Shown: positions 187 through 61,150 of the stretch, piece by piece | Layout of the letters: each line of letters starts with the position of its first letter | Numbering within the stretch: the stretch's first letter is position 1 | From: Membranipora membranacea | Lineage: Eukaryota; Bryozoa; Gymnolaemata; Cheilostomatida; Membraniporidae | DNA length: 64,000 nt | NCBI GenBank assembly: GCA_914767715.1 | Contig: OU612074.1 | Coordinates: 21,996,062 to 22,060,061, forward strand | Reading direction: 5' to 3' | Notes under the pieces: generated by a model | Seen by the model: the letters and a program-made list of their open reading frames with translations, nothing else | Told to the model about the DNA's origin: nothing | Database searches by the model: none | Program-made: the position numbers and the translations under genes

Positions 187-1510
187 TTTATTAATTCCAT
201 TTCTGAATCTGATTCTATCGGAGAAAATACATACCACCATGAGATGAACTTAAAATCAGTTTATATCCATAATGTTTTCTTTGGAGCATTTTGTTTCCAT
301 AATTACCATTGGAGCACCGGCAGGTCATTTTTAATGTACAAATTTCAATATCGTGATCTCTTTGATTTAGGTAATTTGGCAATCATAAATCTTTTTGACA
401 TCAGTTAAATACTCTAACAAATTTAGGTTAGGATGACTCAACTACAGTGGACATACATATGAGGTCTGAGCTGCATGAAATGTTTGGTTCTATAGATGCA
501 CCAGTACCTTCTGTTGCGTAGAAATGGAGGGAGATAGAAACCTAAAATGCACTTTGGATTCTGATAAATTTTCGCATATTGCTTTTATACCCAACTCAGT
601 GTTGTCATCATTGAGAAAAAGAATCAGATTGGCTAGTTGAAAGCAATACCAAAGCGCCTAAAGAATTATTTGGTGTTATATGTGTAGGTTCTGGTTTGCC
701 TCAGAACAAAACCGCCACACTTTTACTAGGTACAAAGTTTGCAACTACCCTGCTACTGACCTTTTAAGGCAATGTCACTTAAACTGAATTGTTTATTATT
801 TCAACTTATCATTAATATTCAACAGCTCAAAGTTTAATTGAGAGTTTGTTAACATAATCAACATCCACATTAAAAACAAATTAACTTCTGTTTGCACTAC
901 TGACGATGTGCTGGTAAAGCTGGCGAATATTGTTAATTCATGACTGACATCGGTACCCCTATCGTAGACGAGTCTCCTGGCTAGTTATCAGCTTCGTTTG
1001 TGTTTTAGTTTTGACAATGCACTCGATGTGTGTGTGTGTGTTTGTCTGAAGGTTAAGGCTGGTCCGCATCGTCCCAGATGAAATACGGATATCAATCCAG
1101 TATCTGGAAAGTTACAACCTTGCCAGATACTGTACCAGACCAATTTCTATTGCTGGGATTTTGTAATTTTCATGTTCATATTGACTGGGATGGCTGTCTG
1201 GAACAATATGGACCAGCCTTTAACATTGCTATGTGATTCAAATACGCAGGCTCAAATACCTGAAGTACAGCTTGTCTATATTAACAAATATCATATCCAA
1301 AATAGCATTATGACTATAAACAAAATTCAGCATTGTTTTGCAGCAAACGATTTTTACCTATAATCCATGATATAAATGCGGATAAGTTTGGACCACCCAA
1401 ATAGTCTCAAGGAAATTATTGATTACAAATAAGTACGTAAAGGACATGAACAAAAGTACTGCTCGGGTAAACAACTTTTTTTTGACAGACAGGAAATGGA
1501 ATGCCAACTC
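187..1510. other. Intergenic, no gene recognised
   Basis: AT-rich sequence with short chance reading frames and a (TG)n run near 1026-1041. No exon with coding character or known family was found on either strand. Confidence 0.5.
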
Positions 1511-2437
1511 TACTCTGTTAAGAGTACATCTACTCTGATAAGAGTACATCTACTCTGATAAGAGTACATCTACTCTGATAAGAGTACATCTACTCTGATA
1601 AGAGTACATCTACTCTGATAAGAGTACATCTACTCTGATAAGAGTACATCTACTCTGATAAGAGTACATCTACTCTGATAAGAGTACATCTACTCTGATA
1701 AGAGTACATCTACTCTGATAAGAGTACATCTACTCTGATAAGAGTACATCTACTCTGATAAGAGTACATCTACTCTGATAAGAGTACATCTACTCTGTTA
1801 AGAGTACATCTACTCTGATAAGAGTACATCTACTCTGATAAGAGTACATCTACTCTGTTAAGAGTACATCTACTCTGATAAGAGTACATCTACTCTGATA
1901 AGAGTACATCTACTCTGATAAGAGTACATCTACTCTGATAAGAGTACATCTACTCTGATAAGAGTACATCTACTCTGATAAGAGTACATCTACTCTGATA
2001 AGAGTACATCTACTCTGTTAAGAGTACATCTACTCTGATAAGAGTACATCTACTCTGATAAGAGTACATCTACTCTGATAAGAGTACATCTACTCTGATA
2101 AGAGTACATCTACTCTGATAAGAGTACATCTACTCTGATAAGAGTACATCTACTCTGATAAGAGTACATCTACTCTGATAAGAGTACATCTACTCTGATA
2201 AGAGTACATCTACTCTGATAAGAGTACATCTACTCTGTTAAGAGTACATCTACTCTGATAAGAGTACATCTACTCTGATAAGAGTACATCTACTCTGTTA
2301 AGAGTACATCTACTCTGATAAGAGTACATCTACTCTGATAAGAGTACATCTACTCTGATAAGAGTACATCTACTCTGATAAGAGTACATCTACTCTGATA
2401 AGAGTACATCTACTCTGATAAGAGTACATCTACTCTG
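1511..2437. repeat. 20-bp satellite, about 46 copies, hairpin-forming
   Basis: About 46 perfect or near-perfect head-to-tail copies of AGAGTACATCTACTCTGATA. Each unit holds the inverted pair AGAGTA / TACTCT around a 4-base loop (CATC), and the junction between units (TACTCT-GATA-AGAGTA) is a second inverted pair. The only visible variation is GTTA for GATA, in units ending at 1520, 1800, 1860, 2020, 2240 and 2300. It has no coding role. The homogeneity implies recent amplification or ongoing homogenisation. Confidence 0.97.
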
Positions 2438-3606
2438 CACACTTCTGCTCTTTTTCAAAAAACATGGTCTCCTACTCTTTTTTTACATTTGACCTAATGC
2501 TTTTTATTTGTGATCCTGATCTCCGTTAAATACTTATACCTATTCATATTCATGCTTTATAGCTATTATTACAATCAACTATCACTACCTTATAAATTTT
2601 TGTTCATTGGTTTATGGTTTCAAAGCCAAAGCCAAAGCAATTTAGTCCTCTGGTTCTTTTAGAGTTGTTAGCAGATCATTGACATAGAATCACTGTAAAA
2701 TTCAACATGGTTAATGCATTTCATATATCACAACATAAAATTGTTTCTTTATAATCATACAACTAGGCCACACCCAGAGGAATTCCCCAACTTTGATGAA
2801 TATGAGGCAAAATCTGAGCTTTTAGCTAATTATCTGAAACCCCCTGAGTTGCCTGAGTTGAACCCAAAAACCTGAGTAACTCGGGCTAAATCTGAGTGGT
2901 TGAGAGCCCTGCCGTATGTTGTTTTCCTTTGCAAAAATTTTTAGTTGCAAATCATTATCAAACTGCTAGCGCCAAGTTTCTTGTTCTATCTCAATTTCTA
3001 AACTCAAAATCTGAACGAAATTGATTTAGTTATAAAAAGAAGACTGGTGTTGACTGCAAGGCAATGACGGGGTTGTGTTTTTCGGAGTAATCTCCCTTGA
3101 TTATTTACAGATGAGACCATACTTTTTCAAAGTTTTATATAAGCCATAAAGGAAGCAGATGAGACCTTTTGCTGTAAAAACTCCTCGGTTTCTGCTAACT
3201 ACAATTGATATTTTTATTCGGTAATCCAAAAATCTGACCTATATGCTGAAATAAAAAAGTATCGGAAAATCTTAATTTTTAATACAATTAAAATTAAATA
3301 ATAATACATTAAATTATACAAACCTGATCAATCACAATGAAATTCAGTGTCAGGAAGGAAGGTGTCATGTAATATACAGCTAAATTTGTTTTGCAAAAAG
3401 ATTCCATATATATATTAAGTTATTGTATTAAATATAGAATTGTTTTGTATTACAATAACATAAAATATATATATGTCATTCTGAATTTTTTTTCTGCAAT
3501 CAATATTTTCAGGTTGGCTTTATATAACATTCAAAATTCGAAGCTGGATGTAGTTTGTTAGATAAAAGTTGAGAAGTTTCTTCATCCTTCTTGTTTCAAC
3601 GGCAGG
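2438..3606. other. Intergenic, no gene recognised; start of a dispersed LINE-related repeat
   Basis: Nothing gene-like is seen. Bases about 3558-3656 are similar to about 12110-12235 (shared blocks such as GAAGATCTGAATTTT versus GTTAAGATCTGAATTTT), so this end belongs to a dispersed repeat family that runs into the next feature. Confidence 0.5.
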
Positions 3607-3915
3607 TTGTATAATGTTGGAAGTGAAGATCTGAATTTTGTTTTTATGCTTCTTATTTTTAGCTATAGATCAAACCTTGAACGCATTCAGCAATTATGTA
3701 CCAAGATAATTTTGCCGTTTAAAGAGAGTTACCCACAGTGCCTTATCATCCTGTTATTTCTTTTAGTGAGGATCAGGACAGACAACATTCTTTTCAAAAG
3801 TTTTAGTAACCGAAATCATGTATTATCCTCTTTGATACCTGAGAGACAATCTACCAAGCCCAGACAGACAGGGAGACGCCCTGATACATTTCTCACACCT
3901 GCCAAAACAATTTAA
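3607..3915 (+). mobile_element. Decayed 3' end of a non-LTR retrotransposon reverse-transcriptase ORF
   Basis: From about 3660 the + strand encodes residues like the C-terminal tail of CR1/Jockey-type LINE polymerases: an ERIQ...IILP block, then a region like the family's 'RR..L...F' helix and a 'H.L..L.P.R' block (here NHVLSSLIPERQ). The frame is open for about 100 codons, but no catalytic core lies upstream, so this is a 5'-truncated remnant. A diverged copy of the flanking sequence occurs at about 12110-12325. Family assignment is from motif memory only. Confidence 0.55.
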
Positions 3916-5941
3916 CGACAAAATTCTCTTCCAACTTTGCAGATAAAAAGTTTCTGCGAATCATCTGTATTATTTAATGAAAGGACTGCTTGACATGATC
4001 TTATCAAGGAGTATAAGAGGCTGAACTGAGCATTATGATAGACGACAGCCGTTATGTAAAATATTGACAATATGATAATCAAGTGGAAACCTTTCGCTTA
4101 ATAGCTCGGAACCAGCACTATTCTAATCATAAGATATTACAAATAAATATTCTGCTTTTTCACTGCATTCAATCACTTAGTTTGGCACTGCTGGTTTTGA
4201 AAAAAACTGCATATAAGTGCGCTATTACTCCCTGATTATACCTTCATAACAACTTATTTATCAGTTCTGAACGGACACCTTGACCAGTCGCAGTCAAAGG
4301 CTCATAAGACGTGTCTTGAGACGCTGTAAGTCAGTTTGAGAGGCGTGAAAACAGTTGAGAGACACTTCACGACTGACCAAGATAATTTCAGACAAAAAAT
4401 CGATGTATGAGTAAACCATCAACAGGCCTTATCTCAAAGGCATTAGAATTAGGCTAACCATGGAGGAATAGAAGTTACTCTTTGGGATAACCAGGGAGGG
4501 TGGGATATACCCACCCTCCCTGGGCTAACCAAGAGTCATAAAGTGTTTGTTATCGAGTTGTCTCCTCTTGTCCCGAGAGAGGACAACTATTCCCAACCCA
4601 CAACAAATGACATCATGTTGATAAGCTAAAATACAAAATGAAAGATGAGCTTTTATTGGACAAAAAGCTATTGGCCAATCAAAACACAGTAGTAGAACAA
4701 GATCATAACCTGGAAACCAATAATGACCCCAATTCCTTCTTGGGGGAGGGGGTTGATTCACCTGATCCTTAATGATCATCATTGACACCAGCTCGCACTA
4801 TTTTGCAATAGTTGCAATAATTCCAATTCTGAGTGAGAAATTCTTACAAGATCTTGCTGATTTTCACGTCCCATTGCTGGTTCTGGGTGATGATTCATTA
4901 GTACAAACCAATGCAAGCTCACATGATTACTTAGGAATGATGAAACTAGTGAGACAGATGCTGATTCCAAGCTAGAGCTGCAGAGAAAAGGTGAAATTAT
5001 GTACGTGTCTTAATAATTAATTAACTTAACGAGTGTGACTGTCTTTTTTTAGCCATCATCATCAGACCAAAGAGTAAATAAAGGGAGGGTTTGAGGATCA
5101 ACTCCTTTAATCATTCACCCAAATGAAGCGACAGCAAGACAGTGGTGGCCGCATGTTAAATGATACCAGAGGCATGGAATTGTTGGTTTTGCAGTGAGAC
5201 TTTATCATCAAGGTATGTGCTTGCAACGATTTATATGGACTAGCTAAAAAACCGTAATTCATTGCAAGGAGGTTTGCCTCATAGGAAGGTCCATCCACCG
5301 AGGGTTTTTTTCATGGCAAAAACAGTGTAGCTCATCACTTGATAGCCTGTATTCTGTGTTGAGACCTAAATAAAGAACCACATACCTTGGGACTTGCGAG
5401 CCTCCTATTTTTGACCCTTGTCAATTATCACCCCAGGGGGTTAAGAGAGTTTTTACCACCACCTGCATGACCTTTTTTCCTTTTTGGACAAGTTGTGTAG
5501 ATCTGAATGTGTAATGTCATACCGGATCTTACAACACCTAATTTAAACTGCCACATTATTCAATTCTTTTCCACTCCCTTGAGTCTATATGGCGTTTTAG
5601 TGCCTGTACAGAACAATAGTATTGTGGCGCTTCCTATAGTTAGGCTTACCTGATTACTGAACACAATACTCTGGGTATTTTTATACAACTATGTATGAGT
5701 TCAAGTCATTGCGGTGGTCAACCGTAGACCCGAGCACAAGATATATCTTTGTTACACAAAGTCCATAAGCCAATATGCTTTGGTACCACTCTCAGTGTCT
5801 CTGTCTCTTATACCCTAAATGACACTGAGAGAAACCAAATTTAGACAGTTTAATTTTTTTATATTTCAGAAGCTCGATGATGGTGTAGGGAGGGAATAAC
5901 CTTATAATTAGCTAAGTTATAATATTGTGTCACAAAGCAAT
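3916..5941. other. Intergenic / upstream region of the W-rich gene
   Basis: No exon recognised. A short inverted repeat built of TACCCACCCTCCCTGG / CCAGGGAGGGTGGG lies at about 4490-4525. The promoter of the gene starting at 5942 should lie at the right end, but no clear TATA box or initiator was identified. Confidence 0.4.
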
Positions 5942-15597: not shown

Positions 15598-15860
15598 ACA
15601 AAACTCCCAAGAAGAAATGGGAGTGATGATGCTAGATTGTGGTAGTTCAACTTCTCACAAACTTAGGGGCATGTCTAAACGATTCTTATAGACCAACCAA
15701 AATCTATTTCCAGAAACAGAGAAAGCACGGTTGCACCTTTTTATCATATAACTTTCATTTGTAACCAACAACCCTAAAATCAAGATAAGTCCGATGTAGC
15801 GGTCTGCAAGAGTACGCAAGACTGGCCATAAACTATTTCACCTTGACTATGACATTTTGT

Positions 15861-15974
15861 TGCCCCGTCCCCGTATGCCCCGTCCCCGTATGCCCCGTCC
15901 CCGTATGCCCCGTCCTCGTATGCCCCGTCCCCGTATGCCCCGTCCCCGTATGCCCCGTCCCCGTATGCGCCGTA
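15861..15974. repeat. GC-rich 15-bp minisatellite, about 7.5 copies
   Basis: Tandem copies of TGCCCCGTCCCCGTA with single changes (CGTCCTCGTA in one unit, TGCGCCGTACC at the right end). It stands out in base composition from its AT-rich surroundings. The - strand would read as Gly-His-Thr-Gly-Thr repeats, but without a supporting gene this is treated as non-coding. Confidence 0.9.
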
Positions 15975-16560
15975 CCACCCACGGCTTTAGTATTGATGTA
16001 AATCTTATACGTTTTATGTATTAACCGTCTTGAATATAAATTGATGTACATATTTATTTTAAGAAATCCGGAGTCAGCTCTGGTCATTATTAACCACTTT
16101 AACTTGACAAAATAGGCTGTTTTTATTACAAGTTTAAATACTTTTTATCGGGTAAATTTTTATGTGTTACTCAGTTGCTCTTCTGTAACCTAGAAAGTGG
16201 GTGTGCAATTTGTAATATTGATCAGTTCGAAATTTATCTGTGAAAGGTATCTATGAAGGGGTATAAGTTCATACAATTATCAGCTTGTTGTTGTATTCAC
16301 ATTTCTTAAAGCTGTGATCTATATCGTCAAAAACAAATTTGTATGACTATACATGTTTATTCTATGTCTTTTTGAATATTGAACGTTAATAATTATTGAT
16401 ACGTAAGGTTTCTATTGTAAAATGACAGTATTTGAGGGTAAAAAAAAGTGACATAAAACTTTGTATAATCAATAAAATAAAATAGTCCAAGAATAGTTTC
16501 GAGATTAATTAACACATCGACACTTGTAGGTTATGCTTATGAGACAGAGTCTCAAGCAAT

Positions 16561-38309: not shown

Positions 38310-39771
38310 TTAAACATTATGATAGAAAATGAGCGGACACTCCGATCGGAGTTCGGTTCGAGTGGTTGGTGGTATGGGCAGGTCTAGGCGGGTGGATCTC
38401 CGAGGGGGTGCTGCAGGAGTATAGCTATGGGCTAGCTGGTGGAGACAATGTTCAGGGCTGCCCATGATGCGATTGATGTAACTCTTGCCGGTGTCTTCGA
38501 GTATAGTGAGAATGGGCACTATTTCGTCGGTTTGAACGCATTCGTCGTAGTCTCGGCTGCTTGGGTCCATGATCATCAGAGCTAAGTTTTCTAGTCTTAC
38601 TAGCCGCAGTCTCTGCTCACCGGATGTGAAGGAGTACCAGGACGGGCAGGCGTAAAGGATGATGGGTCGAATGCATGTTGTGTAGAATTTTGTCATGATG
38701 TGTGTCGGTACTCCTCATCTCTTCAGGTCTAGTAGTGAGTACACAAGACCATGGATTTTCTTTATAACATGATCCACGTGATCTTTGAATGTCAGATGTT
38801 CATCAATAATGACGCCAAGAAACTGGGTGCTAATCTCGTTCGAGATCTGCTCACCATTCATTGTGAAGGTGGGTGCTTCAGGTACAAAGTTGTTGTGGAT
38901 GTTAGAGATGGACATGGTGACAGACTACGGAGGTGTGGTTTGGTGTGAGAGTAATGTCGTCGGCATATTTGATGGTTTCAGTTGTAGTAGTGGCAAGAGT
39001 GTCTATATATAGCAGCCAGAACATTGGTCCCAGCAGTGTACCCTGCAGCGTTCCGTTGTTCGCAGGTAGGTCGGCACTTTTGGAGTTGCCCAACCTCACA
39101 TATTGACAGCGGCCGCTCAGAAAACTCTCAACTATAGCCACAATTTGTCTACTCACACCTCTTTCTGCCAGCATGGTGAGAAACTTGGACTTATCAAACG
39201 CCTAAGACATGTCTAGGAAGGCTATGGGGATACCGTGGATCTTCTCATCGAGCATTTCCGCCCATCCGTTGACTGCTGAGAGAATGGCATCGGTGGTGCT
39301 TTTGCCTTTCTGATACGCAAACTGGTCGGAGCCTATGGTTGGTAACACTACTTTGGAATAGAAAAACATGATTGCTCTCACTAAAACCTTTCCTAGATTC
39401 CACAGCAATAACATAGGTCTAAAATCAGATGGGTGGTTTACAGATTTAGTTTTCTTAAATGGTATCACTTCTGCTTGTTTCCAAACATCAAGGGAAAATC
39501 CCTTAAGCACACGATCATTTATGAGATCACACAATGGCACATAGATATCTTCTCTACATAGCTTAAAGACCCACGATGGAAAATCAGACGAGCAGGTCGA
39601 CTTGCTGGTGTCTATACTATTTAGCCAGTGTTTTACCTGTCGGACGCTGACGCGTATCTCGTGATCGGGAAGAGTAGCTAGCAGTGCGTCAGTGTCTAGG
39701 TCTGATGGAGTGCCGGAGATGCTGGTGAAGTATTTATTCAGCGTCTCTGCAGCAGTGGAGGTGGTCATCAA
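38310..39771 (-). mobile_element. Defective non-LTR retrotransposon with reverse-transcriptase domain
   Basis: On the - strand from 39771 down to 38310, broken frames carry the ordered motifs of a LINE polymerase: a 'WK.A.V.P..K' type block (DVWKQAEVIPFKKTKS), QFAYQKGKSTTDAIL, LDMS followed by a stop and AFDK, a 'LQGTLLGP' block (from 'PQGS.LGP'), the YADD catalytic motif (IKYADDITLTP), FLGVIIDEHLTFKDH, and a C-terminal ILYACPSWYSF region. At least one nonsense codon (at about 39210) and frame changes make it inactive. A - strand frame at 39926-40108 may be part of its upstream region. No target duplication or tail was identified. Confidence 0.85.
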
Positions 39772-41079
39772 TGTTTAGGATTAGAGATGCTGTAATGAGA
39801 ATTGTCGGAAGAGCCGCAGGCCTAAACCAATCAGTCTGTTCTTCTGTGGACAGTTGCAGTAATGTTGAGGTGGTCCCGGTATGAGATCCAGTGGCTAGCT
39901 CGTCTTGATCATTATCACTAATACCTCACTTCATTACTCGGAGTTGTGTAATGATGCGGGATAAATTGTCCTTAGAGGCTGAGAGAAATCTTCTCATTAC
40001 ATTATACCATGCCGGTGAGCTGTTGTCTGGAGATGCAAATACATTCTGATGCATGTTTATAGAAGAGTTTGGAAGAAAGAGTTGTACGAGATCTGATCTC
40101 ATGTCCATATCCGTGGGCTTGACTGATTTTCTTGTTGGATTTTTTTATATTGCTATTTGAATAAGAACCTCTAAACCAAGCACTGATAAAAGAATCATCA
40201 TAAGATTTTTATTCACGCATAAGAAAAAGTCAAGGGCAACAATTATAATTTCTTAAGTTTGCAAAACAACCCCCTTCATCAATTATGATTATTATAAGTT
40301 GCTGGATGATGATGTATATTTTATTGTTATTGTTGAAACTTGCTTTGGGAGGGTGGTAAATCCATTCGACTCCGGAAGCCCTCAATAACATCAAGTGTGA
40401 AGTAATTAGCGGCAGAATATCCTCTAGCCCCGGGGCTTCCGGTTCCTTTTAGGATCTTGTTGTCTTATTCGGCATGCATTCTAAAAGTGATTCACACGAT
40501 CCACATTAGCAATATCTTGTGTTTATTAACTGGCAGCTTGCCTGTTGTTGTGATTGCATTATTGGTAACTATTTGGTGAATCTCTGCAAGGGATTATTGC
40601 ATAAACATGAAATACTGGTAATCTGGAAGCAATCTTGTCAGTTAATTAATAATATGCATTGAACAATGAGCACAAAGGTTTCGTTAAACAGACTATGTCA
40701 TAAATGGAATCTATCAATGTTCACCCTCATTGATCGTCTGACTGGTTGTCGCAAGTGGAAATTAGATGTTGCATTATGGTCTATGATGTCATGATAAATT
40801 GTTAATCGAAAAAGGGCTCGAAATTTCCCAATGGTCTTCTGTTGGTTGTTTATGTTTTGCCTGCTAGGGTGGGGCATAACATATTTACTTTATAATTATA
40901 ATAATGAGTGTTACTGCCCTATTAGAGACAATTCGGTCCACAGGGAAGGCATAATAGGATATAGCATAACTTACCTTCAACCAAGATTTACCAATGTATA
41001 ATCCACAGCTACTATTTTCAGCAAAGTTTTGAAAAGGTAGCTCTATGACCTAAAGCAGATCTATTATCTACACAACTAC
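39772..41079. other. Intergenic, possibly including 5' LINE sequence
   Basis: Nothing firm. Bases about 40970-41055 (ACCTTCAACCAAGATTTACC ... AAAAGGTAGCTCTATG) resemble about 41765-41875 (ACCTTCTACCAAGATTTAAC ... CAAAGCTCTATG), another local duplication. Confidence 0.4.
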
Positions 41080-47193: not shown

Positions 47194-49376
47194 TCACTGA
47201 TTGAATCTTATCGACCACTTGTAGAAGGTGGTATGTCTAAGACTTTGTCCATTCCTTGTTACAGTCAGTATCTCATCTATAGCAACAAAACTGAATGATT
47301 ACAGTTTTGATTTACGTGATATATTGACTTAAAAGTTTCTCAGGTACGACTTGTCCTGTTCAAAAAAATGCCTCCACTGACGCATCTGTAGTAGACTGAT
47401 TAAATTTCCATTTATCACAAGACCGCATTTTACTATTTAGAATAATCTTATTGTTTGTATGTACCTTACAGATTGGTCAGTGAACATTAAACTAAACAAA
47501 ACTCTTAATATTGGATCTTTAGTACTCACCTTGTTGTTGTTCAATGTTAGTGACTGTTGGATTTGGTAACACAGGATATCTCAGTGAGTCTGGATGGTTC
47601 CTTGTTCGCATACTTATTCCAGGCTGTAGATAAAATTTCTCTGTGAGAAATGTACATCTAATCTGTGGCATAGATGCAACATGGGCTCGTGCTGGATCTC
47701 TCTGGTATCTATTTGTATTCAGTAGGTAGTCTGTTCTCTGTACTCCATTCCTCGCTACAATCTGTCTGATCTAAAAGATATGTAAAGAACAACTGCATTC
47801 TCCTGGAAATTCATGTGGGCTAGTCACAAATAATTCTATAAATCTATCAAATAATGAAGCAGCATATGAACTTTAAAAAAAATGTAACCAAAAGTTATAA
47901 GAACATTGATGTACTTACACTTGCTGCCAGCTCCTCCATATGAAGTCTGTGAGAGTATTTGTAGAACACAGTGACAAGTACTCTTATAAATGGTGAGCCT
48001 ACACTGGTTCTCCTTGGTGATGCAAAAGCTAAAAATAACAAAAAACCGTCCGAAGTAAAGTATGAAGGAGAGAGCCAGGGGGTATCTGTATAACATGTGC
48101 ACATTTTGTCAGACAATAGAAAGTAGGTCTATCACTGGTATTGGTAATGGCGTTGACGGAATATTGACAAAAAGTAAATTTAGGTGATGATATTTTGTTA
48201 AGTGATACTTTGGGTTGGATTCAAGCTTTGAGAAAGAATGCTATATGGAGTAGATGAGGTGAATGACATAAAATCCAATAGTATCTATCAGCTTACAGTC
48301 GAAGCTTGATTGCATGATTATGAAATCAGCAGTAGAGATATCCTCTGGAGTAGAGTCTTGTAAATCTTCACCAGAATCTGATACTAGAGCTCTCTGGATA
48401 AGATCTACGCCAGCTTGATTCTGAGTAGGTGCAGCCTGGGGTGTTCCATCAAGCATCATTTCTCTCTTGCCTGAAATCATCAGTTACAGATTCACAAACA
48501 TCTTAATAACAGAAAATATATCGCCAATTGATATATTTTGTCAAGACCAGGAATCTCAGATGGGATCTGCTGGTATGATCACTGGTTATCTTTATTTTTT
48601 GTTTTTCATATTAAAGATACAGTCAGTATAGAAATCAATGGTTTCTAGAACTAAAAGTTGCACTTTTAGGACCCAAATATACGGTAAAGAGGTTGCAGCG
48701 ATGAAACCTCTTCTGATCCTAATCATGTCTGAAGAATACCAATATGAGGATTGCATTAATTTGTCTGTTCGGATCATACCATCAGGAATTCTTCTCTGAT
48801 ATTGATTATCTATAATTATACTTACGTCCCGCACATGCCTGGATGATCACAATCTTTGGTTTCCCCTTCATGGAGGGGAAGTTCTTTGGAGAGACCAGGT
48901 CCATGATATCAGTGATCTTTATATGCTTCCTATCTGATCCACCTATTGATCCTTCATCACCATGACTTGTTAGAACTAAGACGAATGATCCAAGATGAGT
49001 GTGTACAGATTCTCCTGTATGTCTGTCTACTAGCTGTGTCTCTTTGTGGATCTCTGTGACTATATCCTAAACAACAATGCCATACTCTAATAAATTTCAT
49101 CATTGGTGTGAAAAAGAAATAAGTTAACCTGATCATGTATGGGGGTAATAGATCATGAATTGTAATATAGTAATTTATCATAATATCAATATTGTTTTAA
49201 AGGAACGGTCTTACTTGTGCTGTGTAGCTCTTATGTTCTCCTACAGTGATATATCCGAGCCTGTCCCACAGTCTCTTCATATTAGTATAATCATGTTCTG
49301 ATCCTGGTCTTGTGTTGTTGAACGAGTTAGATATGATGAGAGCTCTGCCTCGTGTCTCAGTCATTGGATATATCGT
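47194..49376 (-). CDS. Caspase domain exons (p20 and p10)
   Basis: Six exons. The first (49215-49376) gives YPMTETRGRALIISN and GSEHDYTNMKRLWDRLGY, the start of a caspase p20 with its S1-pocket Arg. The second (48826-49066) holds both catalytic residues: His in LVLTSHGDEGSIGG and Cys in VIIQACAGR (family QACxG). The third has an Asp-rich intersubunit linker (VSDSGEDLQD) and ADFIIMQSSFDS. The fourth and fifth carry the p10 core (VGSPFIRVLVTVFYKY, then PQIRCTFLTEKFYL). The last adds a short tail. With catalytic dyad and both subunits present, it should be an active Asp-specific protease. No CARD or DED prodomain precedes it; upstream is the Roc-COR linker. Confidence 0.9.
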
Positions 49377-52300
49377 CTACAAACACGTAAACAACTATAT
49401 AAAGTGAGACAATATGCTGTGTCGTCATTCATTGCTATGTTGCCTATGAAAGGTGTCCACTAGGGGGCGAGCATGTCAAGTTTTCCAATTACATTTCATA
49501 ATCCTAATGATTGAGAGGTAAAAGCTTTGAATATTTGTGAGCTACTATGCTACAGACCATATTCTCAGTGACCGTGGTACCAGGAGTGGCTAGTACAGGC
49601 TCTATATCTATATCTGCTGTCTCAGAGTTTACTATAGCAATAATCTCATCCAGTTGATCTGTGTGTAAGTCAGAGGTAGCAGCTGATGACTCTGCGATTT
49701 CAGCAGCCTGAGGAGACATACCTACAGAAATCAGAACAAAATCCATATTTACACTGCAATGCTATGAAACTTCTCATAAATGTTCGATGCTGGATCATGT
49801 TCTCAATTTTTTTTCAAATCATGGTTGTACTTACGTCTTCACAGACTTCTGCTTGGCTTATTTGGATTTTGTCTACCAGGAACAATTATGAATGAATAAC
49901 AAATGTGAATAGTTACCTTGCTGGGGCAGATGATCATTGATCTGCAGTAAGTATGTGCCCAAAGCATGTACTCCACTTTCTGTGACTTGGCCACCTGGTA
50001 AAATGAATAACTTATTGAAGTAAAACTGCTATTGACACAAAACTCAAGGCTTTTCTTAATATTGAGCGTTGAAACTGAATGCCTTTTTTGTGCAAAGAGA
50101 GGCAATTAGCCGCATACATTTAGGGGGGCTCAGGAGTCTGTAATACTGGCTAGGGTAATTGCTTGTTATGCGTCCTAAAAACAGTAAGCAATGTATGCAA
50201 AAACACATCAAATACCTGTCACAGCTAACCATTTACTCACAAGGGAAAAGGAGTGGATGTGGGACTGATGGCCGGCCTTTGGCACCTTCATCTCTGTTAC
50301 ATACTCCCATCTCATCACCAGTGTAGAGGAAGTTTGATCTTTGGGTCCATGTTGGATCCACCTTCACGGTTGGTTTCTCTTGTTTGGTGAGCAGACAATG
50401 TGAGCAGTAAAACACTTTATCAAAATGGGCTCCCTTCCACACGGATTGTAATTCTGCTTCCAAGAGCTGCACTGCAGTCAGTTGACCCTCCCAACACTCT
50501 GCGATGTGTTTTGGTTTTGCCAATGTTATAATCGACACAGTCCTCTGTTGTTGATCGTGGATAAAATATTTGATCGCCCCGTTACTTTCTTTTACACACG
50601 CGCCATTCATTAGAGCTTCAATATGGTTGAACTGAGTGATGTTAAGGTTGATAAATATTGCAGTGAGCAGATAGTACACATAGCTGGGCAATGGCAGCCC
50701 ATTGAAGTGAATCTCGACTTTCAGCGGAATGAAATCCCCCGACTCCAGAACAGTGATCCCTTTTTGACTGAAGTATGGGACTATGTAGTGTTCCTCACCA
50801 GATACCTTGATTGGACCACACACCAGATGAAAGACTTTCAGCACTTCGACAGCAATGTCAGGGGTAATCTCAGACTCATTGGCTATCAGGTTCAAAAGTA
50901 GAACAGAGTCCATCATTCCAGTTTCCTCAAATCTTTCAACCATTTCCACGTACTTCCTTTTGTTGATTTTCTTCCCGCTGCTGGATCGGAACGGCTCAAA
51001 ACTTGAAACCCGTATTTTCCACGCTTCTTCGCTGGAGTGATCGAAAATTAACTCAACAAGTTTCAGGAGCAAGTCAATACGATGAAACACTATCTTGGAC
51101 AGTTTTACCCTATTCTTGTACCACATAACTCTTGTTATCTCATGGAGATATTGTAGAATGTACCGCTCTCCATCATCTGGAAACATCTCATCTAGCTTTT
51201 CCAGGGTAAGAAACGGCCAATCCGTTTTCCCTGCACATAGATCCATCAAGTTGTACCAGCTTTCTGGTATTTCTGAGAGCAATGGAATACCAATAGACCT
51301 GAGAACAGACTTCAAGTTTGCGATGACTTCTTCTCCAGATTCCTCATAAATGAGAATGGGTTGATGGCTTGTGAGCAGAGGCTCTGAAGTATCACAGAAA
51401 CTTTTCATAGAGAAGAATCGACTGGCTTTTGGAGCCATTACTTTTTCCTCATTTATTATTGTTCTCCTCAAGGTCTCAGTTGCCTCTATCACTTCCCTCT
51501 TCCTCTTATCCAATATTTCTGGGTCCTTGATGAGATCACAATGAGTAAGAACTAGTAGAGGTCGGCCAGCTCCAGGACAGGCGAGGAACAAATGGGACAG
51601 CCATCCGAAGCAAAGCTGTTCACAGGCACCTTCTATGCCGACCTCAGATACAAGCGAATCAAACTCAGCTATATCTATGACAAGAAGAGGTACAAACTGT
51701 GACCGGGTGGAGAGCTGATACGAGAACTGATAAATCATCTGACCACCGAAGTCATGAAATACCAGCTTGGTTTGAGGGTCAGCAGCAGCCTCACAGACTT
51801 TGAATATTTTGGTAGCCTCATCTAGTACGCTTCGATCTAGTACGGTCGATCGGAATGTTAGATATCGTTTCCCATCCTGTATTGATTTCACAAGGCTAGT
51901 CTTCCCAGCCCTAGTCTTCCCAATCACTGTGACTGGAATGTACTTCACCCCAATTCCCTTTTCAAGATCAGTCAGAAACTTTTGTACTGCTCCCAGTCCT
52001 TGTTTATACACAGCAGGTGGCGGGAATGATAGAGATATACAACGATCAAGCTGAAGAACTTTCAGATTTTTGAGTCTATGTAGGTGAGCTGGAAGCCTGA
52101 TGATCTTCTTATTGTAGTCGAGGTGTAGTTCCTTTAAGTTCATTAATCTAGAAAAACTAAAGAGAAATTTATGATATATACATTTTTTTTGTAAATACCA
52201 TCACCCATTATGTGAGATGGATCTGTACTAGCTTACTCCAGGAGAAGCCAGGAGGTTGAATGCAGCAGGACGAGGAGAAGCTCGGAGAAATCCAGATTTC

Positions 52301-55300
52301 CCAGCTCACAGCCAGGTGACATCATGCATCAATGAAGAGGGGGAATATGATGATGAGATAAGATGGACGCCTAACAGGAGGCATCATGCACCCTACACAT
52401 GCTCTTGATAGATCTCTATCTTTAAATTTGATCTATGAAATTTTCGAACTATATATTGCCACTTGTTCTACATTAGTGTAACAATTAAAGCACAAGTCAA
52501 TAAGCTTGAGTGGGTACTCATTATAGTTCACAATAAAATAGCAACCTAAACTCCCTAACCTGCCCTAACTCCCTAATAATTAAGTATAAATCACTCATTA
52601 CTTTTTGATACGATATTGTCTGTGAGAGTCCTAGTTGTTACGTCGAATTCAGTTTAATCTATGAAGACAAAAAAGGATCCCATTTTTGCCATCGGTTGAT
52701 TTATCAACCAGTTTGGGGGTGGGAGAAAGTGAATCTGATGAAAATACCACTGTCTGATATAAGGTATGTGCGTATTACCTGGTAGGTTGACTAGAAACAG
52801 CATGAAACAGCCATTGGAATATTTATTGATTTTCTTAAGTTTGGCTTAACTGTGCCTGTGTTTAAAATGCAGAGCTTATTATAAAGGACTCCCAATCATA
52901 GGCTTATGCTTGAATGTGTTTAGTATGAATCAGAATGATCTGGTTTAATGGCAGTCTAAATGTGACAGGTGTGTGTGTTTGCTAATGTAGGCATGAAGGC
53001 AAGTAGTAAAAAAAGTATCATCAAAAGTCAATCACTGGATAGACATAGGTTGATAAATAGAATTTAGATTCTATATGTTTAGCTTCAAGGTACCACTAAC
53101 ACAACTATAGTTTGACAACTTAGGAAGTACAATAGATGGTCGGGTGTTTTATACTACACAACGAGTTTTCACAGGCCATGTATGCTGCAATAGGAGTCGC
53201 AGGGAACCCGCGGTAGCAAGTGTTAAACATGAATGATTGTGCCAAGTAGAAACTTTGTAAAGAATAGACTGTTAGGAATCTGAAGACTTTTCTGACGGCC
53301 ATTTGTTTGCTCCAATTGGTATTAGAATGTTCCCTCTCTGATTCCTAATGATGTGTGTGGAAGCAGAAAGGATTTGTTAGGTCTCTCCCAAAACTATCGC
53401 TACCCTAGCTTAGATTCTTATGATAAATTTATCCTGTGCTTGTCGTTTGGACCTGTTTTAAAGGTAATTAAACTGAGATTCGCCCTTTCTTGAGGAATTT
53501 TTTATAGGGAATGAAATTATCTGCAGCTGACTCCCATACTGGTACAAGGTGATACCCTAAGATTAGATAACGAGGCATACAAGAAGATAACCAGAAGCAA
53601 AGTAAAGTTGACAATCTGATAATCTTTAGATTCTTTGATATAATAATTGGTTAATTTGCGCCACCGATAGGCTCAATTGGTTAGTTTTCTTAGCATCGCA
53701 GCAACTGAACTAATTCAAAAGTTTTGACCTATGAGTTAACAAATTACAGGCAAAGAAATTAATTGTTAGCATCAATTTTATATCCTATCTTATCATTTTT
53801 ATTCTCTATCTATTCTATCAAGTAAGCCAGTTTCAGCATTAGAATCCTAGTTTTGAGGAATTTAAGGAATCGTAATCTTTTATGGAACCAGGGTCACATT
53901 AACAACAATTAATACTGGCAGATCCCAAAAACTACAAACAACAACTACTCCACTAAGTTATTTGGAGAAATATAAGCCACAACATACTATGCCGATTTAG
54001 CCTTGTTACGAGGCTATTTTATAGCTTGACAAGGCTAATGCTGACTTACCTGTCAGGCAGCTCAGTAAGATTACACCCTGACACATCAAGCTTCTTGAGG
54101 CTCTTGAATTCTCCGATCTCATCAGGTAATGTACACAGGCTCTTATTCCATGATACATTCAGCTCTTCCAGACAAGTTAGAGATCTTATGCTATAAATAC
54201 CCATTTAGATTAAATTTACAAATGATGACACTATTTGAGTAAAGTTACAGTGAATACCTCAAAATTTACTTAAATGATGTAGTATGTAGAAATATTAATT
54301 CCACTATTATCATGCTGACTTACCTGTCAGGTAGCGCAGTAAGATCACAGCGTGGCACATCAAGCTTCCTGAGGCTCTTTAATTCTCCGATCCAATCAGG
54401 TAAATTACGCAGAGTCTTATTCCCTGATAAAATCAGCTCCTCCAGACAAGCTAGAAATCTTATGCTATAAATACCAATATATTATATTAAATTGACAAAT
54501 GATGACACTTTTGGGTAAAATTACAGCGAATACCTAAAAATTTACTTAAATGATGGAGTATGTAGAAATATGAATTCAACTATTATTTTATTCGACTCAC
54601 CTGGCAGGAAGCTTTGTAATACCACAATATGACATATCAAGCTTCGTGAGGCTCTTTAGTTCTCCGATCCCATCAGGTAATGTACACAGGCTCTTATTAC
54701 TGGATACATTCAGCTCTCCCAGACAAGTTAGAGATGTTATGCTATAATTATCCATGTAGATTAAATTGACAAATGATGACGCTATTTGGGTAAAATTAAA
54801 GTGAATACCTCAAAATTTACTTAAATGATGTAGTATGTAGAAATACTAAATCCACTATTATTATGCTGACTTACCTGTCAGGTAGCGCAGTAAGATCACA
54901 GCGTGACACATCAAGCTTCCTGAGGCTCTTTAGTTCTCCGATTCCATCAGGTAATGTACACAGGCTCTTATTACTGGATACATTCAGCTCTTCCAGACAA
55001 GTTAGAGATGTTATGCTATAATTATCCATGTAGATTAAACTTACGAATGATAACACTATTTGGGTTAATTTACTGCGAAAACCTCATAATTTACTTATAT
55101 TATGTAGTATGTATAAAATATTAATTCCACAATTATTTTATTAGACTTACCTGGCAGGCAGCTTAGTAAGTTTACAGCATGACACATCAAGCTTCGTGAG
55201 GCTCTTTAGTCCTCTGGTCCCATCAGGTAATTTACGCATACAATTATTCCCTGATACAATCAGTCCATCCAGACAAGCTAGATATCTTATGCTATAAATA

Positions 55301-58300
55301 CCCATATAGATTAAATTGACCAATGATGACACTATTTGTGTTAAATTACAGTGCAGACCTCCAAATATACTTAAATGATGTAGAATGTAGAAATATTAAT
55401 TCCACTATTATTATATTTGACTTACCTGGCAGGCAGCTCACTAAGTTTACACTGTGACACATCAAGCTTTGTGAGGCTCTTTAGTCCTCTGATCCCGTCA
55501 GGTAGTTTACGCAGACTCTTATTCTCTGATACGATCAGTTCCTCCAGACGAGCTAGAGATCTTATGCTATAAATACCGATGTAGATTAAATTTACAAATG
55601 ATGACACTATTCGGGTGAAATTACAGTGAATACCTCAAAATTTACTTAAATGATGTAGTATGTAGAACTATTAATCCCACTATTATGATGCTGACTTACC
55701 TGTCAGGTAGCGTAGTAAGATCACAGCGTGACACATCAAGCTTCCTGAGGCTCTTTAATTCTCCGATCCCATCAGGTAAATTACGCAGAGTCTTATTCCC
55801 TGATACAATCAGCTCCTCCAGACGAGCTAGAGATCTTATGCTATAAATACCCATATATTATATTAAATTGACAAATGATGACACTTTTGGGTAAAATTAC
55901 AGCGAATACCTCAAAATTTACTTAAATGATGGAGTATGTAGAAATATGAATTCAACTATTATTTTATTCGACTCGCCTGGCAGGAAGCTTTGTAATACCA
56001 CAATATGACATATCAAGCTTCGTGAGGCTCTTTAGTTCTCCGATCCCATCAGGTAATGTACACAGGCTCCTATTACTGGATACATTCAGCTCTTCCAGAC
56101 AAGTTAGAGATGTTATGCTATAATTATCCATGTAGATTAAATTTACAAATGATAACACTATTTGGGTAAATTTACTACGAAAACCTCATAATTTACTTAT
56201 ATGATGTAGTATGTAGAAATATTAATTCCACAATTATTTTATTTGACTTACCTGGCAGGCAGCTTAGTAAGTTTACACCGTGACACATCAAGCTTCCTGA
56301 GGTTCTTTAGTTCTCCGATCGAATCAGGTAATCTCTGCAGACTCTCATTGACTGATACTCTTAGTTGCTCCAGACAAGTAAGATATCTGATGCTATAAAT
56401 ACCCATATGGATTAAATTTTAACATGTAGACACTATATGAGAATAAAAAGAGCTGATATCTCAAAACTGCAAAACCGAGATAATTTGTAGAAATGTTAGC
56501 TCCATTGTTATTATACTCGACTTACCTGCCAGGAAGCTCAGTAATACCACAATATGACATATGAAGCTGCGTGAGGCTCTTTAGATCTCCGATCCAATCA
56601 GGTAATCTCTGCAGACTCTCATTGACTGATACTGTTAGTTGCTCCAGACAAGTAAGATATCTGATGCTATAAATACCCATATGGATTAAATTTTCATCAT
56701 TTAGACACTATATGAGAATAATAAGAGCTGGTATCTCCAAACTGCAAAACCGAAATAATTTGTAGAAATATTAGCTCAATTGTTATTATACTTGACTTAC
56801 CTGTTAGGAAGCTCAGTAATACCACAATTTGTCATATCAAGCTTCGTGAGGCTCTTTAGTTCTCCGATCCCATCAGGTAATGTACACAGGCTCCTATTAC
56901 TGGATACATTCAGCTCTTCCAGACAAGTTAGAGATGTTATGCTATAATTATCCATGTAGATTAAACTTACGAATGATAACACTATTTGGGTTAATTTACT
57001 GCGAAAACCTCATAATTTACTTATATTATGTAGTATGTATAAAATATTAATTCCACAATTATTTTATTAGACTTACCTGGCAGGCAGCTGAGTAAGTTTA
57101 CACCGTGACACATCAAGCTTCCTGAGGTTCTTTAGATCTCCGATCCAATCAGGTAATCTCTGCAGACTCTCATTGACTGATACTCTCAGTTGCTCCAGAC
57201 AGGTAAGATATCTGATGCTATAAATACCCATATGGATTAAATTTTCATCATTTAGCCACTACATGAGAATAATAAGAGCTAGTATCTCCAAACTGCAAAA
57301 CCGAAATAATTTGTAGAAATATTAGCTCAATTGTTATTATACTTGACTTACCTGTTAGGAAGCTCAGTAATACCACAATTTGTCATATCAAGCTTCGTGA
57401 GGCTCTTTAGTTCTCCGATCCCATCAGGTAATGTACACAGGCTCCTATTACTGGATACATTCAGCTCTTCCAGACAAGTTAGAGATGTTATGCTATAATT
57501 ATCCATGTAGATTAAATTTACAAATGATAACACTATTTGGGTAAATTTACTGCGAAAACCTCATAATTTACTTATATTTTGTAGAATGTAGAAATATTAA
57601 AACCACAATTATTTTATTTGACTTACCTGGCAGGCAGCTTAGTAAGTTTACACCGTGACACATCAAGCTTCGTGAGGCTCTTTAGTCCTCTGATCCCATC
57701 AGGTAATTTACGCAGACTCTTATTCCCTGATACAATCAGTTCCTCCAGACAAGCTAGAAATCTTATGCTATAAATACCCAAATAGATTAAATTGACAAAT
57801 GATGACACTTTTTGGGTAAAATTACAGTGAATACCTCAAAATTTACTTAAATGATGTAGTATGTAGAAATATTAATTCCACTATTATGATGCTGACTTAC
57901 CTGTCAGGTAGCGTAGTAAGATCACAGCGTGACACATCAAGCTTCCTGAGGCTCTTTAATTCTCCGATCCCATCAGGTAAATTACGCAGAGTGTTATTCC
58001 CTGATACAATCAGCTCCTCCAGACGAGCTAGAGATCTTATGCTATACATACCAATATATTATATTAAATTGACAAATGATGACACTTTTGGGTAAAATTA
58101 CAGTGAATACCTCAAAATTTACTTAAATGATGGAGTATGTAGATATATTAATTCCACTATTATTTTATTTTACTCACCTGGCAGGAAGCTTAGTAAGATC
58201 ACACCTTGCCACATCAAGCTTCCTGAGGTTCTTTAGTTCTCCGATCGAATCAGGTAATCTCTGCAGACTCTCATTGACTGATACTCTTAGTTGCTCCAGA

Positions 58301-59416
58301 CAAGTAAGATATCTGATGCTATAAATACCCATATGGATTAAATTTTAACATGTAGACACTATATGAGAATAATAAGAGCTGATATCTCAAAACTGCAAAA
58401 CCGAGATAATTTGTAGAAATATAAGCTCCATTGTTATTATACTCGACTTACCTGTCAGGAAGCTCAGTAATACCACAATATGACATATCAAGCTTCGTGA
58501 GGCTCTTTAGATCTCCGATCTCATCAGGTAATCTTTGCAGACTCTCATTGACTGATACTCTCAGTTGCTCCAGACAAGTAAGATGTATGATGCTATAAAT
58601 ACTTATATGGATTAAACTTTCATCATTTAGACACTATATGAGAATAATAAGAGCTGGTATCTCCAAACTGCAAAACCGAAATAATTTGTAGAAATATTAG
58701 CTCAATTGTTATTATACTTGAATTACCTGTCAGGAAGCTCAGTAATACCACAATATGACATATCAAGCTTCGTGAGGCTCTTTAGTTCTCCGATCCCATC
58801 AGGTAATGTACACAGGCTCCTATTACTGGATACATTCAGTTCTTCCAGACAAGTTAGAGATGTTATGCTATAATTATCCATGTAGATTAAATTTACAAAT
58901 GATAACACTATTTTGGTAAATTTACTGCGAAAACCTCATAATTTAGTTATATGATGTAGTATGTAGAAATATTAATTCCACAATTATTTTATTTGACTTA
59001 CCTGGCAGGCAGCTTAGTAAGTTTACACCGTGACACATCAAGCTTCGTGAGGCTATTTAGTCCTCTGATCCCATCAGGTAATTTACGCAGACTCTTATTC
59101 CCTGATACAATCAGTTCCTCCAGACAAGCTAGAGATCTTATGCTATAAATACCCAAATAGATTAAATTGACAAATGATGACACTTTTGGGCAAAATTTCA
59201 GTGAATACCTCAAAATTTACTTAAATGATGGAGTATGTAGATATATTAATTCCACTATTATTTTATTTGACTTACCTGTCAGGTAGCGTAGTAAGATCAC
59301 AGCGTGACACATCAAGCTTCGTGAGGCTCTTTAGTCCTCTGATCACATCAGGTAGATTACGCAGGCTCTTATTCCCTGATACGATCAGTTCCTCCAGACG
59401 AGCTAGAGATCTTATG
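47194..59416 (-). CDS. LRR-Roc-COR-caspase protein (5' end not found)
   Basis: Twenty LRR exons of 141 bp (59416 down to 54050), one 1,907-bp Roc-COR exon (50241-52147), then exons 49917-49994, 49546-49721, 49215-49376, 48826-49066, 48297-48470, 47919-48028, 47530-47770 and 47194-47276, with stop TGA at 47194-47196. All phases agree: 2-2 for every LRR exon, 2 into Roc-COR, then 1,1,0,0,1,1,0,1. The total is about 1,997 codons without the missing start. The product would sense a ligand through LRRs, switch through a Roc GTPase with COR dimerisation domain, and act through a caspase. Roco proteins known to me in animals (LRRK, MFHAS1, DAPK1) end in kinase, death or short domains, not a caspase. 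The least certain junction is the donor at 49546 (GTAGCT). Two separate genes (a Roco gene and a caspase gene) remain possible until a transcript is seen. Confidence 0.7.
50241..52147 (-). CDS. Roc-COR GTPase exon
   Basis: A single open exon of 635 full codons, entered in phase 2 and left in phase 1. It starts with the end of the LRR solenoid (MNLKELHLDYNKKIIRLP). The Roc domain follows, counted from that Met: P-loop GKTRAGKTSL at about 75-84, DFGGQ at about 131-135 (the switch II DxxG), and THCD at about 200-203 in place of N/TKxD. COR follows, with the typical 'IP.SW' (SEIPESWYNL) and the KLSKIVFHRIDLLLKLVE region. Near the end, VFYCSHCLL is a CxxC motif also seen after COR in MFHAS1-like Roco proteins. 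All GTPase motifs are intact, so GTP binding is expected. The exon ends CCT T|GTGAGT. Confidence 0.92.
52148..54049 (-). other. Large intron between Roc-COR exon and LRR array
   Basis: About 1.9 kb, compared with about 135 bp between the LRR exons. No LRR unit or other exon was recognised on the - strand. A short block at about 53655-53690 (GGCTCAATTGGTTAG) looks like a worn tRNA A-box from a SINE. Confidence 0.6.
54050..59416 (-). repeat. Tandem array of 20 exon-intron units of about 275 bp, each exon encoding two LRRs
   Basis: Exons (low to high): 54050-54190, 54324-54464, 54601-54741, 54875-55015, 55151-55291, 55426-55566, 55700-55840, 55977-56117, 56252-56392, 56526-56666, 56801-56941, 57077-57217, 57352-57492, 57627-57767, 57901-58041, 58178-58318, 58452-58592, 58727-58867, 59002-59142 and 59276-59416. 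Each is exactly 141 bp, starts in phase 2 after ...ATAG and ends in phase 2 before GTAAG or GTGAG. Each gives 47 residues with the LRR pattern L..L.....LP..I..L..L..LD. None has a stop. Three classes alternate: A (SLTCLEELNVSSN), B (LACLEELIVSGN) and C (YLTCLEQLRVSVN). Introns are nearly as similar as exons, showing recent duplication and homogenisation. The unit at 55977 uses a GC donor. Confidence 0.93.
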
Positions 59417-61150
59417 CTATAAATACCCATGTAGATTAAATTGACAAGTGATGACACTATTTCGGTAAAATTACAGTGAAAACCTACTCCAGGGCAATAA
59501 GGTAACTGGTTCGGAATTGCCCTCTCACGTTAAAACCTTCAAAATGAAGAGTTGCCCTCTCTCTTCGAATTTTCACAGGCTTTGATATGATTGGCCCATT
59601 ACATCTTACTTGTTCCTTATTGGCCTGTTCAATAACTTCATACTGATTACAATATCTGTGTTGGGGAACACTGAGCTAGTTATCGATATTGCTAGTAGTC
59701 AACTTTCTGAACAGCAGTCAGACTCAGTGGCACCAATCAGTAACTTCACAGACACATAAGACCACGATGAAGAGATGATGAGCCAACTCAGCTTCACAAG
59801 AAGAAGAAGAATGAAATTAGAACAGCTGTGAATGGACTTGATTGAATCAATTTGTTGTAGCTCTCACTCTCAGGTAAATCAATGCTATTTAGTATTTATT
59901 TGGTACACTACTATTCTACTACTCAGTTGTGAGTGAAAGATGAGTAGACTAACTAAGAAGTCTAGCTAGTAATTGTTAGTTACTATCACTAATAGTAGCT
60001 TTCTGTAGTTTGCCAATGGTACCAATGTACATGTGCAGTGTAATATCAAGCAAGGAGAATGACTCTAAGCGTTGTAAGAGGGGGGGGGGGAGGCTCATAC
60101 AACTCCAAGGAGTTTACTCCTTACTCCTCGCTTTGTTGTTTGTGGTGGTGGCAAGTTTAGGTGGGCAACTCTCGTGCAACTAATTGTCTAGAACTGTTAT
60201 TGCTAATCTACTATGGCTACATGTAGGCCTACATACTTTACATTGTAAGGAAATGCCCCCTCTCTTTACTACAACTACAGCCTATGTAGGCTGGGTCTTG
60301 TATTTGTATAAAGTGTGTGCATAGACTTTGCCTCGGCGCAACTGAGGGATCATTTGCTTTATGTCAACCATTCCCAACTGTCTGAGACTGGTGGGGTCAC
60401 CCTAAAATACAAACAGCAAAACTATAACATATTAGTATACACTTTATTTACTGATAAAGCATGCGCATATAAGACCAAGTGGTACATCGTCATCTAGCTT
60501 AGTAGGCGAGACCTGCTTTTAGCTTCGTTCGAGAATTGGCCACTAATCAATTGAACTATGCTCACTCTTGTGTGAACTATTTGTGAACAAAATTATCTAA
60601 GGAGCAAGGATATTGAGCATTTAAGTTGTAATGATCTTTTGGTTTACAAAGCACAGCTCATGCTAATTGAAATATCCCCTGGTCTATAATGTAATAAAGA
60701 ATATACCAAACCCGATCACCAGAGGAAGGAAACCAGTGCAGACCTTGCCTTTTGACAATGGTATTGAATTTAAATGATTTGTTGGCTGTACAGATTCTCA
60801 ACTGTGTCACAGTGGTCATTTCATTATAATAAGCAGTGATCGGGGAGGGGGACGGATTGCATATAATATTACATGTGTGGGCTCTTTGAGTTGCAAGCAT
60901 GTACTTCGCCTTAATTCAGGGTCAACCACTGCCAACCATTGGTTATTGTGGTCTGTAGTTGGAGAGTAGAGAAATTGGTTACTGAGAGAAACTAGACCAT
61001 TGCCAGCTTGCACACAATTGCAAAAGTTTCCCAAATGTAAATCTTCATCAATAGAATGGTGTATTCAAGTGTTGTAGAGGCACTAGCTCTCTAGCGTATA
61101 ACGCTGGTTTAATTATTCGTCTTGTTAATTTGGGAAAAAAGTAGATAGGC
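59417..61150. other. Upstream flank of the LRR array; no exon identified
   Basis: The repeat unit similarity stops at about 59480, inside the intron, marking the array border. The first exon(s) of the gene (start codon, any signal peptide) should lie to the right on the - strand but were not found. Bases about 59925-60014 recur at about 63119-63209. Confidence 0.5.

Follow-up and report, generated by a model that had tools for sequence, protein, structure and literature searches.

A putative LRR-Roc-COR-caspase fusion gene from a large family in the bryozoan Membranipora membranacea

The window considered here comprises 64,000 nucleotides of chromosome 10 (positions 21,996,062-22,060,061) of Membranipora membranacea. 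On its minus strand, to which all exons described below belong, lies what is probably a single gene that encodes leucine-rich repeats (LRR), a Roc GTPase, a COR domain and a caspase in one fused protein and is, judged from its sequence, a member of a family of at least 71 loci for probable intracellular receptors. The initial annotation had described a Roc-COR exon followed on the same strand by eight in-frame exons ending in a caspase. This was confirmed. Once spliced, the caspase sequence aligns to Pfam PF00656 from end to end (positions 1-233 of 233, E=2e-34) and is by profile a complete p20-p10 unit. The proposed extent of the gene had to be corrected in part. The Roc-COR-caspase portion stood, but 52147 is not where the gene begins, as 20 LRR exons located upstream had been missed. 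Because these exons join in frame, the known coding part amounts to 1992 residues. The frame is open across 29 exons, and its single stop is terminal.

The LRR array, the probable sensor, extends over 54050..59416. Each of its 20 exons comprises 141 nt and encodes 47 aa, by eye two repeats. The exons start at 59416, 59142, 58867, 58592, 58318, 58041, 57767, 57492, 57217, 56941, 56666, 56392, 56117, 55840, 55566, 55291, 55015, 54741, 54464 and 54190. They are spaced by 274-277 nt, have phase 2-2 throughout and lead in frame into the Roc-COR exon. All acceptors are AG; 19 donors are GT and one, that of exon 56117-55977, is GC. Skipping of the exon with the GC donor would preserve the frame. The LRR exons are held by a tandem repeat (54042-59485) with a period of 275 and 19.8 copies. 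Their mean pairwise identity is 83% compared to 66% and 57% for 60 nt of flanking intron. Throughout the array, the scaffold residues Leu, Pro and Asn are fixed or nearly so, and other positions vary. When 9.9 kb upstream of a 92%-identical paralog were compared, DNA similarity to the window ended at about 52453, some 300 nt upstream of the Roc-COR exon. Just two LRR exons were visible in this stretch, and they differ from those of the window. For these reasons, the paralog was of no help in locating the N-terminal exon of the window gene. A similar LRR array may be situated farther upstream of it.

The exon with the last LRRs, the Roc GTPase and COR (50241..52147) ends in ...PLLFP with the phase-1 donor T|GTGAGT. 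It is followed by two linker exons. Exon 2 (49917..49994, 78 nt) encodes CGQVTESGVHALGTYLLQINDHLPQQ, and exon 3 (49558..49721) contains the conserved motif QLDEIIAIVNS-x-IDIEP. In the window alone, the exon-3 donor is ambiguous with five phase-0 GTs; the paralogs place it at 49558/49557 in phase 0. The junction codons CCT T|GT GGC and CAA G|GT ATG are rebuilt exactly as had been claimed. Exon 4 (49215..49376) encodes the N-terminal part of p20 with TRGRALIISN and an S1-pocket Arg within NTRPGSEHD. Exon 5 (48826..49066) carries the catalytic His (SHGDEG) and Cys (QACAG), both of which had been correctly recognized at the outset. Exon 6 (48297..48470) comprises the p20-p10 linker and the start of p10. 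In this linker, Asp is followed by a small residue at two sites, LVSD|S and DLQD|S. Exon 7 (47919..48028) encodes p10 with SPRR in place of SWR and retains the S1-pocket Arg, and exon 8 (47530..47770) encodes the end of p10 (MPQIRCTFLTEKFYL) and a C-terminal tail. Exon 9 (47194..47276) contributes the terminal peptide and the stop codon TGA; a similar terminal peptide is present at the paralogous loci L039 and L040. In the three paralogs read (window 47276-47194, L039 and L040), a short motif centred on YKW is kept at the extreme C-terminus. All eight introns between the Roc-COR exon and the caspase end are GT-AG.

The assignment to the Roco proteins is based on the G-motifs of Roc and on a COR domain located directly after Roc. 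The window copy itself matches Roc PF08477 with E=1.5e-5 and 25.6 bits, which is under the cut-off of 27. All 21 aligned members, window included, match Roc; at E<=0.01, COR-A is matched by 17 of them, to which the window copy does not belong. The divergent C4 member L056 is above both cut-offs. P-loop, DFGGQ and THxD show little or no variation among the 21 sequences, and a profile built from them picks up the Roco protein of C. tepidum in the PDB (E=2e-13). A Foldseek search with a structure model of the Roc-COR exon yielded LRRK1 (E=6e-15), the Roco protein of C. tepidum (COR, E=5e-8) and LRRK2 as closest structures. No NACHT or NB-ARC family was among the Pfam matches of the Roc-COR exon up to E<=1, so that it does not resemble an NLR-type switch by this measure.

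Among solved structures, caspase-4, caspase-1 and CED-3 come nearest to the caspase part, with 57-60 bits. The alignment retains His, Cys and both S1 arginines, which are aligned to the arginines of RRTG and SWR in caspase-1. In caspases, His and Cys are the catalytic residues and the two arginines line the pocket for Asp. QACAG and SPRR depart from the usual caspase forms QACRG and SWR. Both catalytic motifs were present in 19 of 19 loci scanned by script, corresponding to 18 distinct genes. In the divergent Roc-COR caspases L041-L044, a conserved stretch of approximately KHPLDTNDI-x-LL-x-x-SDQYIIP precedes the caspase fold. In the three of them that were tested, no Pfam family except caspase was over the cut-off.

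The gene is not a lone case, although its family had been missed in the initial annotation. A genome search over 339,339,785 bases on 18 contigs was performed with the Roc-COR exon, and 69 of 253 candidates, the window included, were scored. A sponge had first been considered as the source of this genome, among other things because of its gene content, and was rejected; the genome gave 55 innexin matches. The 68 other loci are 43-92% identical to the window, and an internal stop was found in none of the 69. By Pfam, 38 of the 69 loci have a same-strand caspase exon downstream. Absence of a caspase from the other 31 was considered and rejected, as their caspases had diverged too far or were missing from the Pfam match list. 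Addition of divergent type-B caspase exons, for which the best 51 of 150 divergent-exon matches were used, raised the number to 64 of 69, and three spliced type-B caspases are above the Pfam cut-off. The last five loci have exon 4 by homology (L013, L017, L023, L024) or, by reading, exons 4 and 5 (L049). This means that all 69 scored loci are followed by same-strand caspase exons. No antisense or upstream caspase was among the matches listed within the 5-8 kb tested.

A separate COR-A search produced nine matches, five of them inside the 69 loci. It added L055 (C10) and the C4 locus (L056 with L057), both with same-strand caspase exons that display HG and QACxG motifs (L055: Pfam caspase E=5e-11), and thereby at least 71 Roc-COR loci with such exons are reached. 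The C4 match had been considered as an ordinary Roco gene, which was rejected upon detection of its caspase exons. At the COR-A matches L058 and L059 (chromosome 11, 7.341 and 16.352 Mb), neither QACxG nor SHG/THG was found in about 4 kb read downstream. These two are possibly ordinary Roco genes, and a caspase is therefore not a general feature of COR genes in this genome.

The caspase complement of the genome is very large: At least 145 Pfam caspase-exon matches and at least 150 divergent caspase-exon matches were obtained, both being exon counts. In 24 of the best 51 divergent exons, no upstream Roc-COR is listed; these may have other partners. At L054 (chromosome 11, ~3.007-3.0105 Mb), bases 303-3683 form one uninterrupted frame of 1127 aa that comprises ankyrin repeats (Pfam) and a stretch matching the type-B caspase exon with an SHG motif (E=4.6e-12). 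A Pfam caspase is not listed there. L054 is a probable further direct sensor-caspase fusion, and since it is a single frame, such fusions seem to occur free of any splicing question.

Parts of these genes are combined differently in different paralogs. L027 is a chimera: It is 95.8% identical to L026 over the upstream flank, Roc-COR and the linker, as far as base 4295, and past this base it is 96.9% identical to L019 through caspase exons 4 and 5. The breakpoint falls in the intron between exons 3 and 4, i.e. between linker and caspase. Correspondingly, the Roc-COR identity of L027 is 0.97 to L026 and 0.68 to L019, whereas its exon-4 identity is 0.70 to L026 and 0.98 to L019. L030 and L036 are alike in Roc-COR (0.96) but not in exon 4 (0.77), and L049 pairs a distant-type Roc-COR (45%) with a window-type caspase. 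Over 378 pairs, Roc-COR and exon-4 identities still correlate (0.82). Based on L027, L030/L036, L049 and the differing LRRs, sensor, switch and executioner parts appear to have been exchanged at introns with the frame kept.

On sequence grounds, a single fused protein is much more probable than a pair of genes, and the one-gene reading of the initial annotation is strongly supported by the paralogous loci. Alternatively, an LRR-Roc-COR gene could end in intron 1 and a caspase gene could begin at exon 3 or 4, with the pair duplicated in tandem. Since co-duplication alone could explain why both are adjacent and on the same strand, the junction is more telling. In 29 of 30 loci, Roc-COR is followed by the donor (L022 was not assessed, as its match ends early), and the best exon-2 acceptor is in phase with it in 28 of 28 loci examined. 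Exons 3 and 4 agree in phase in 23 of 28. In L034, L035 and L038, exons 2 and 3 are merged into one exon. By its substitution pattern the linker is under constraint (dN/dS 0.29-0.59 in six of eight pairs, the other two being saturated). In-frame ATGs from which a separate caspase could be translated do occur in the window, where one opens exon 3 (GMSPQ) and another lies within exon 4 (YPMTE), and some in-frame ATG in exon 3 is found in 14 of 25 loci. It is absent from the other 11, and the window's exon-3 ATG is GTA in the closest paralog (GVSAR). In-frame splice models of L026, L027, L028 and L036 are free of Met from the Roc-COR junction to TRGRAL. As regards the window, the claim that the caspase has no ATG-led prodomain of its own goes too far. 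Furthermore, introns 1-4 of the window gene lack AATAAA, which is found 125 nt past its stop codon, and the swap in L027, with its breakpoint in the exon 3-4 intron, preserves the frame across linker and caspase. Confronted with these data, two adjacent genes are very improbable.

A number of observations weigh against a single intact fusion gene. The locus count is inflated as independent evidence by co-duplication. Between exons 2 and 3, every one of 25 loci offers an in-frame splice pair, yet such a pair scores highest in only 12 of them. The exon-3 donor of the window (ATG|GTCTGT) is weak, no start codon was found, and the structure model of the Roc-COR exon is of moderate confidence (pLDDT 68, pTM 0.52). 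The weak donor, together with the GC donor in the LRR array, would also fit a decaying or non-expressed duplicate within a repeat-rich cluster. The chance of this is slighter still than that of two genes: 29 exons are free of stops before the terminal one, and dN/dS compared to the 92%-identical paralog is below 1 in Roc-COR (0.47), linker (0.43) and exon 4 (0.27). A third alternative accepts the fusion and concerns its output. The caspase could mainly be a scaffold or regulator or have a non-death role, e.g. in immune signalling or the processing of a partner. Catalytic residues by themselves do not prove a role in cell death, and QACAG and SPRR depart from the usual motifs, but His and Cys motifs are retained across divergent subfamilies and the S1 arginines in the window copy. 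Such a role is rather unlikely, although it deserves more weight than the two preceding explanations.

For the LRR-Roc-COR-caspase fusion, the simplest mode of action would be the following. The LRR array would bind a ligand of microbial, danger or allorecognition type. Binding would alter the oligomerisation of Roc-COR, which might act as a nucleotide-dependent dimerisation switch. Two caspase domains could thereby be brought together and activated by proximity, the way in which initiator caspases are activated. Self-cleavage after Asp in the p20-p10 linker might follow. This would lead to cell death or to a cleavage of inflammatory type, with no CARD or DED adaptor involved. By analogy, GTPase-driven dimerisation activating the caspase is plausible. 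For known Roco proteins it has been proposed that they are G proteins and that nucleotide-dependent dimerisation is their activating step (PMC4104024).

A six-frame search of the genome, in which a limited candidate list was scored, gave only one NACHT match, which was partial (positions 3-62 of 167). Because of this, the LRR-Roc-COR-caspase family may fill the role of NLRs. NACHT is likewise described as absent in Drosophila and C. elegans (PMC2575513). One might speculate further that bryozoans, whose NACHT receptors seem nearly absent as judged by the only genome searched, have evolved an inflammasome of another kind as a replacement. It would consist of dozens of LRR-Roc-COR-caspase receptors, each a single chain, and paralogs would exchange sensor arrays and caspase parts at introns. 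Combinatorial, perhaps alternatively spliced cell death for pathogen defence or colony allorecognition would thereby be possible. This scenario is tentative, with a chance somewhat short of even. The fusion as such would be an animal example of a Roco GTPase linked in cis to a classical caspase, on the scale of a multigene family. The effect of Roc-COR on an output domain, which is relevant to LRRK2 and Parkinson's disease, could then be tested by a simple protease readout. In addition, a route to sensor-switch-executioner immunity in an NLR-poor animal would be suggested, parallel to bacterial conflict systems.

Two other elements were seen on the minus strand of the window. Open frames at 38902-39774 resemble by eye a LINE-type reverse transcriptase, and in the list of open reading frames, the frame at 15833-16144 is a short tandem repeat of GTGHT units.

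NLR inflammasomes and the apoptosome combine an LRR or other sensor, an NTPase oligomerisation switch and caspase output. The bryozoan gene would work alike, but its switch is Roc-COR instead of NACHT/NB-ARC and its caspase is present in cis. Animal Roc-COR-caspase proteins were not found in searches of an open-access library; this is weak evidence of absence, because subscription papers and preprints were outside the scope. One scan for bacterial or archaeal relatives of the Roc-COR exon gave 83 pattern matches in genomes, none of them confirmed, and PADLOC reported 0 families. The architecture has a precedent in bacterial LRR-AP-GTPase(Roc)-COR conflict systems. These share fast-evolving LRRs, Roc, COR and an effector in the same order, which is also the order in the window gene, and a caspase can occupy the effector position (PMC8195603). 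There, caspases count among at least 24 effectors, and several paralogs with different effectors occur in one genome (PMC8195603). By contrast, the bryozoan gene is from an animal, has introns and a caspase near caspase-4, caspase-1 and CED-3, and belongs to one family of at least 71 loci.

Among eukaryotes, sea anemone Novel Gene 1 is likewise an animal LRR-Roc-COR protein with a C-terminal immune effector. This effector is TIR_2 (PMC5094078), whereas it is a caspase in the bryozoan. In the LRRs-caspase and TNFR-caspase hybrids of amphioxus, a recognition domain is placed directly on a caspase without an adaptor. They differ in that Roc-COR is not reported for them: Roc, GTPase and COR domain are not mentioned in the main text of the article (PMC2575513). 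The LRR-ROCO genes of the brown alga Ectocarpus are clustered, too, and have LRRs on repeated in-frame exons, for which immune exon shuffling was proposed. A published summary gives single-repeat exons of 72 nt, compared to 141 nt in the bryozoan, and C-termini homologous to other ROCO or transmembrane proteins, unlike the bryozoan caspase (PMC4104024). Thus, the architecture has precedents, and what distinguishes it in Membranipora membranacea is the size of the family, the swapping of modules and the near-absence of NACHT matches.

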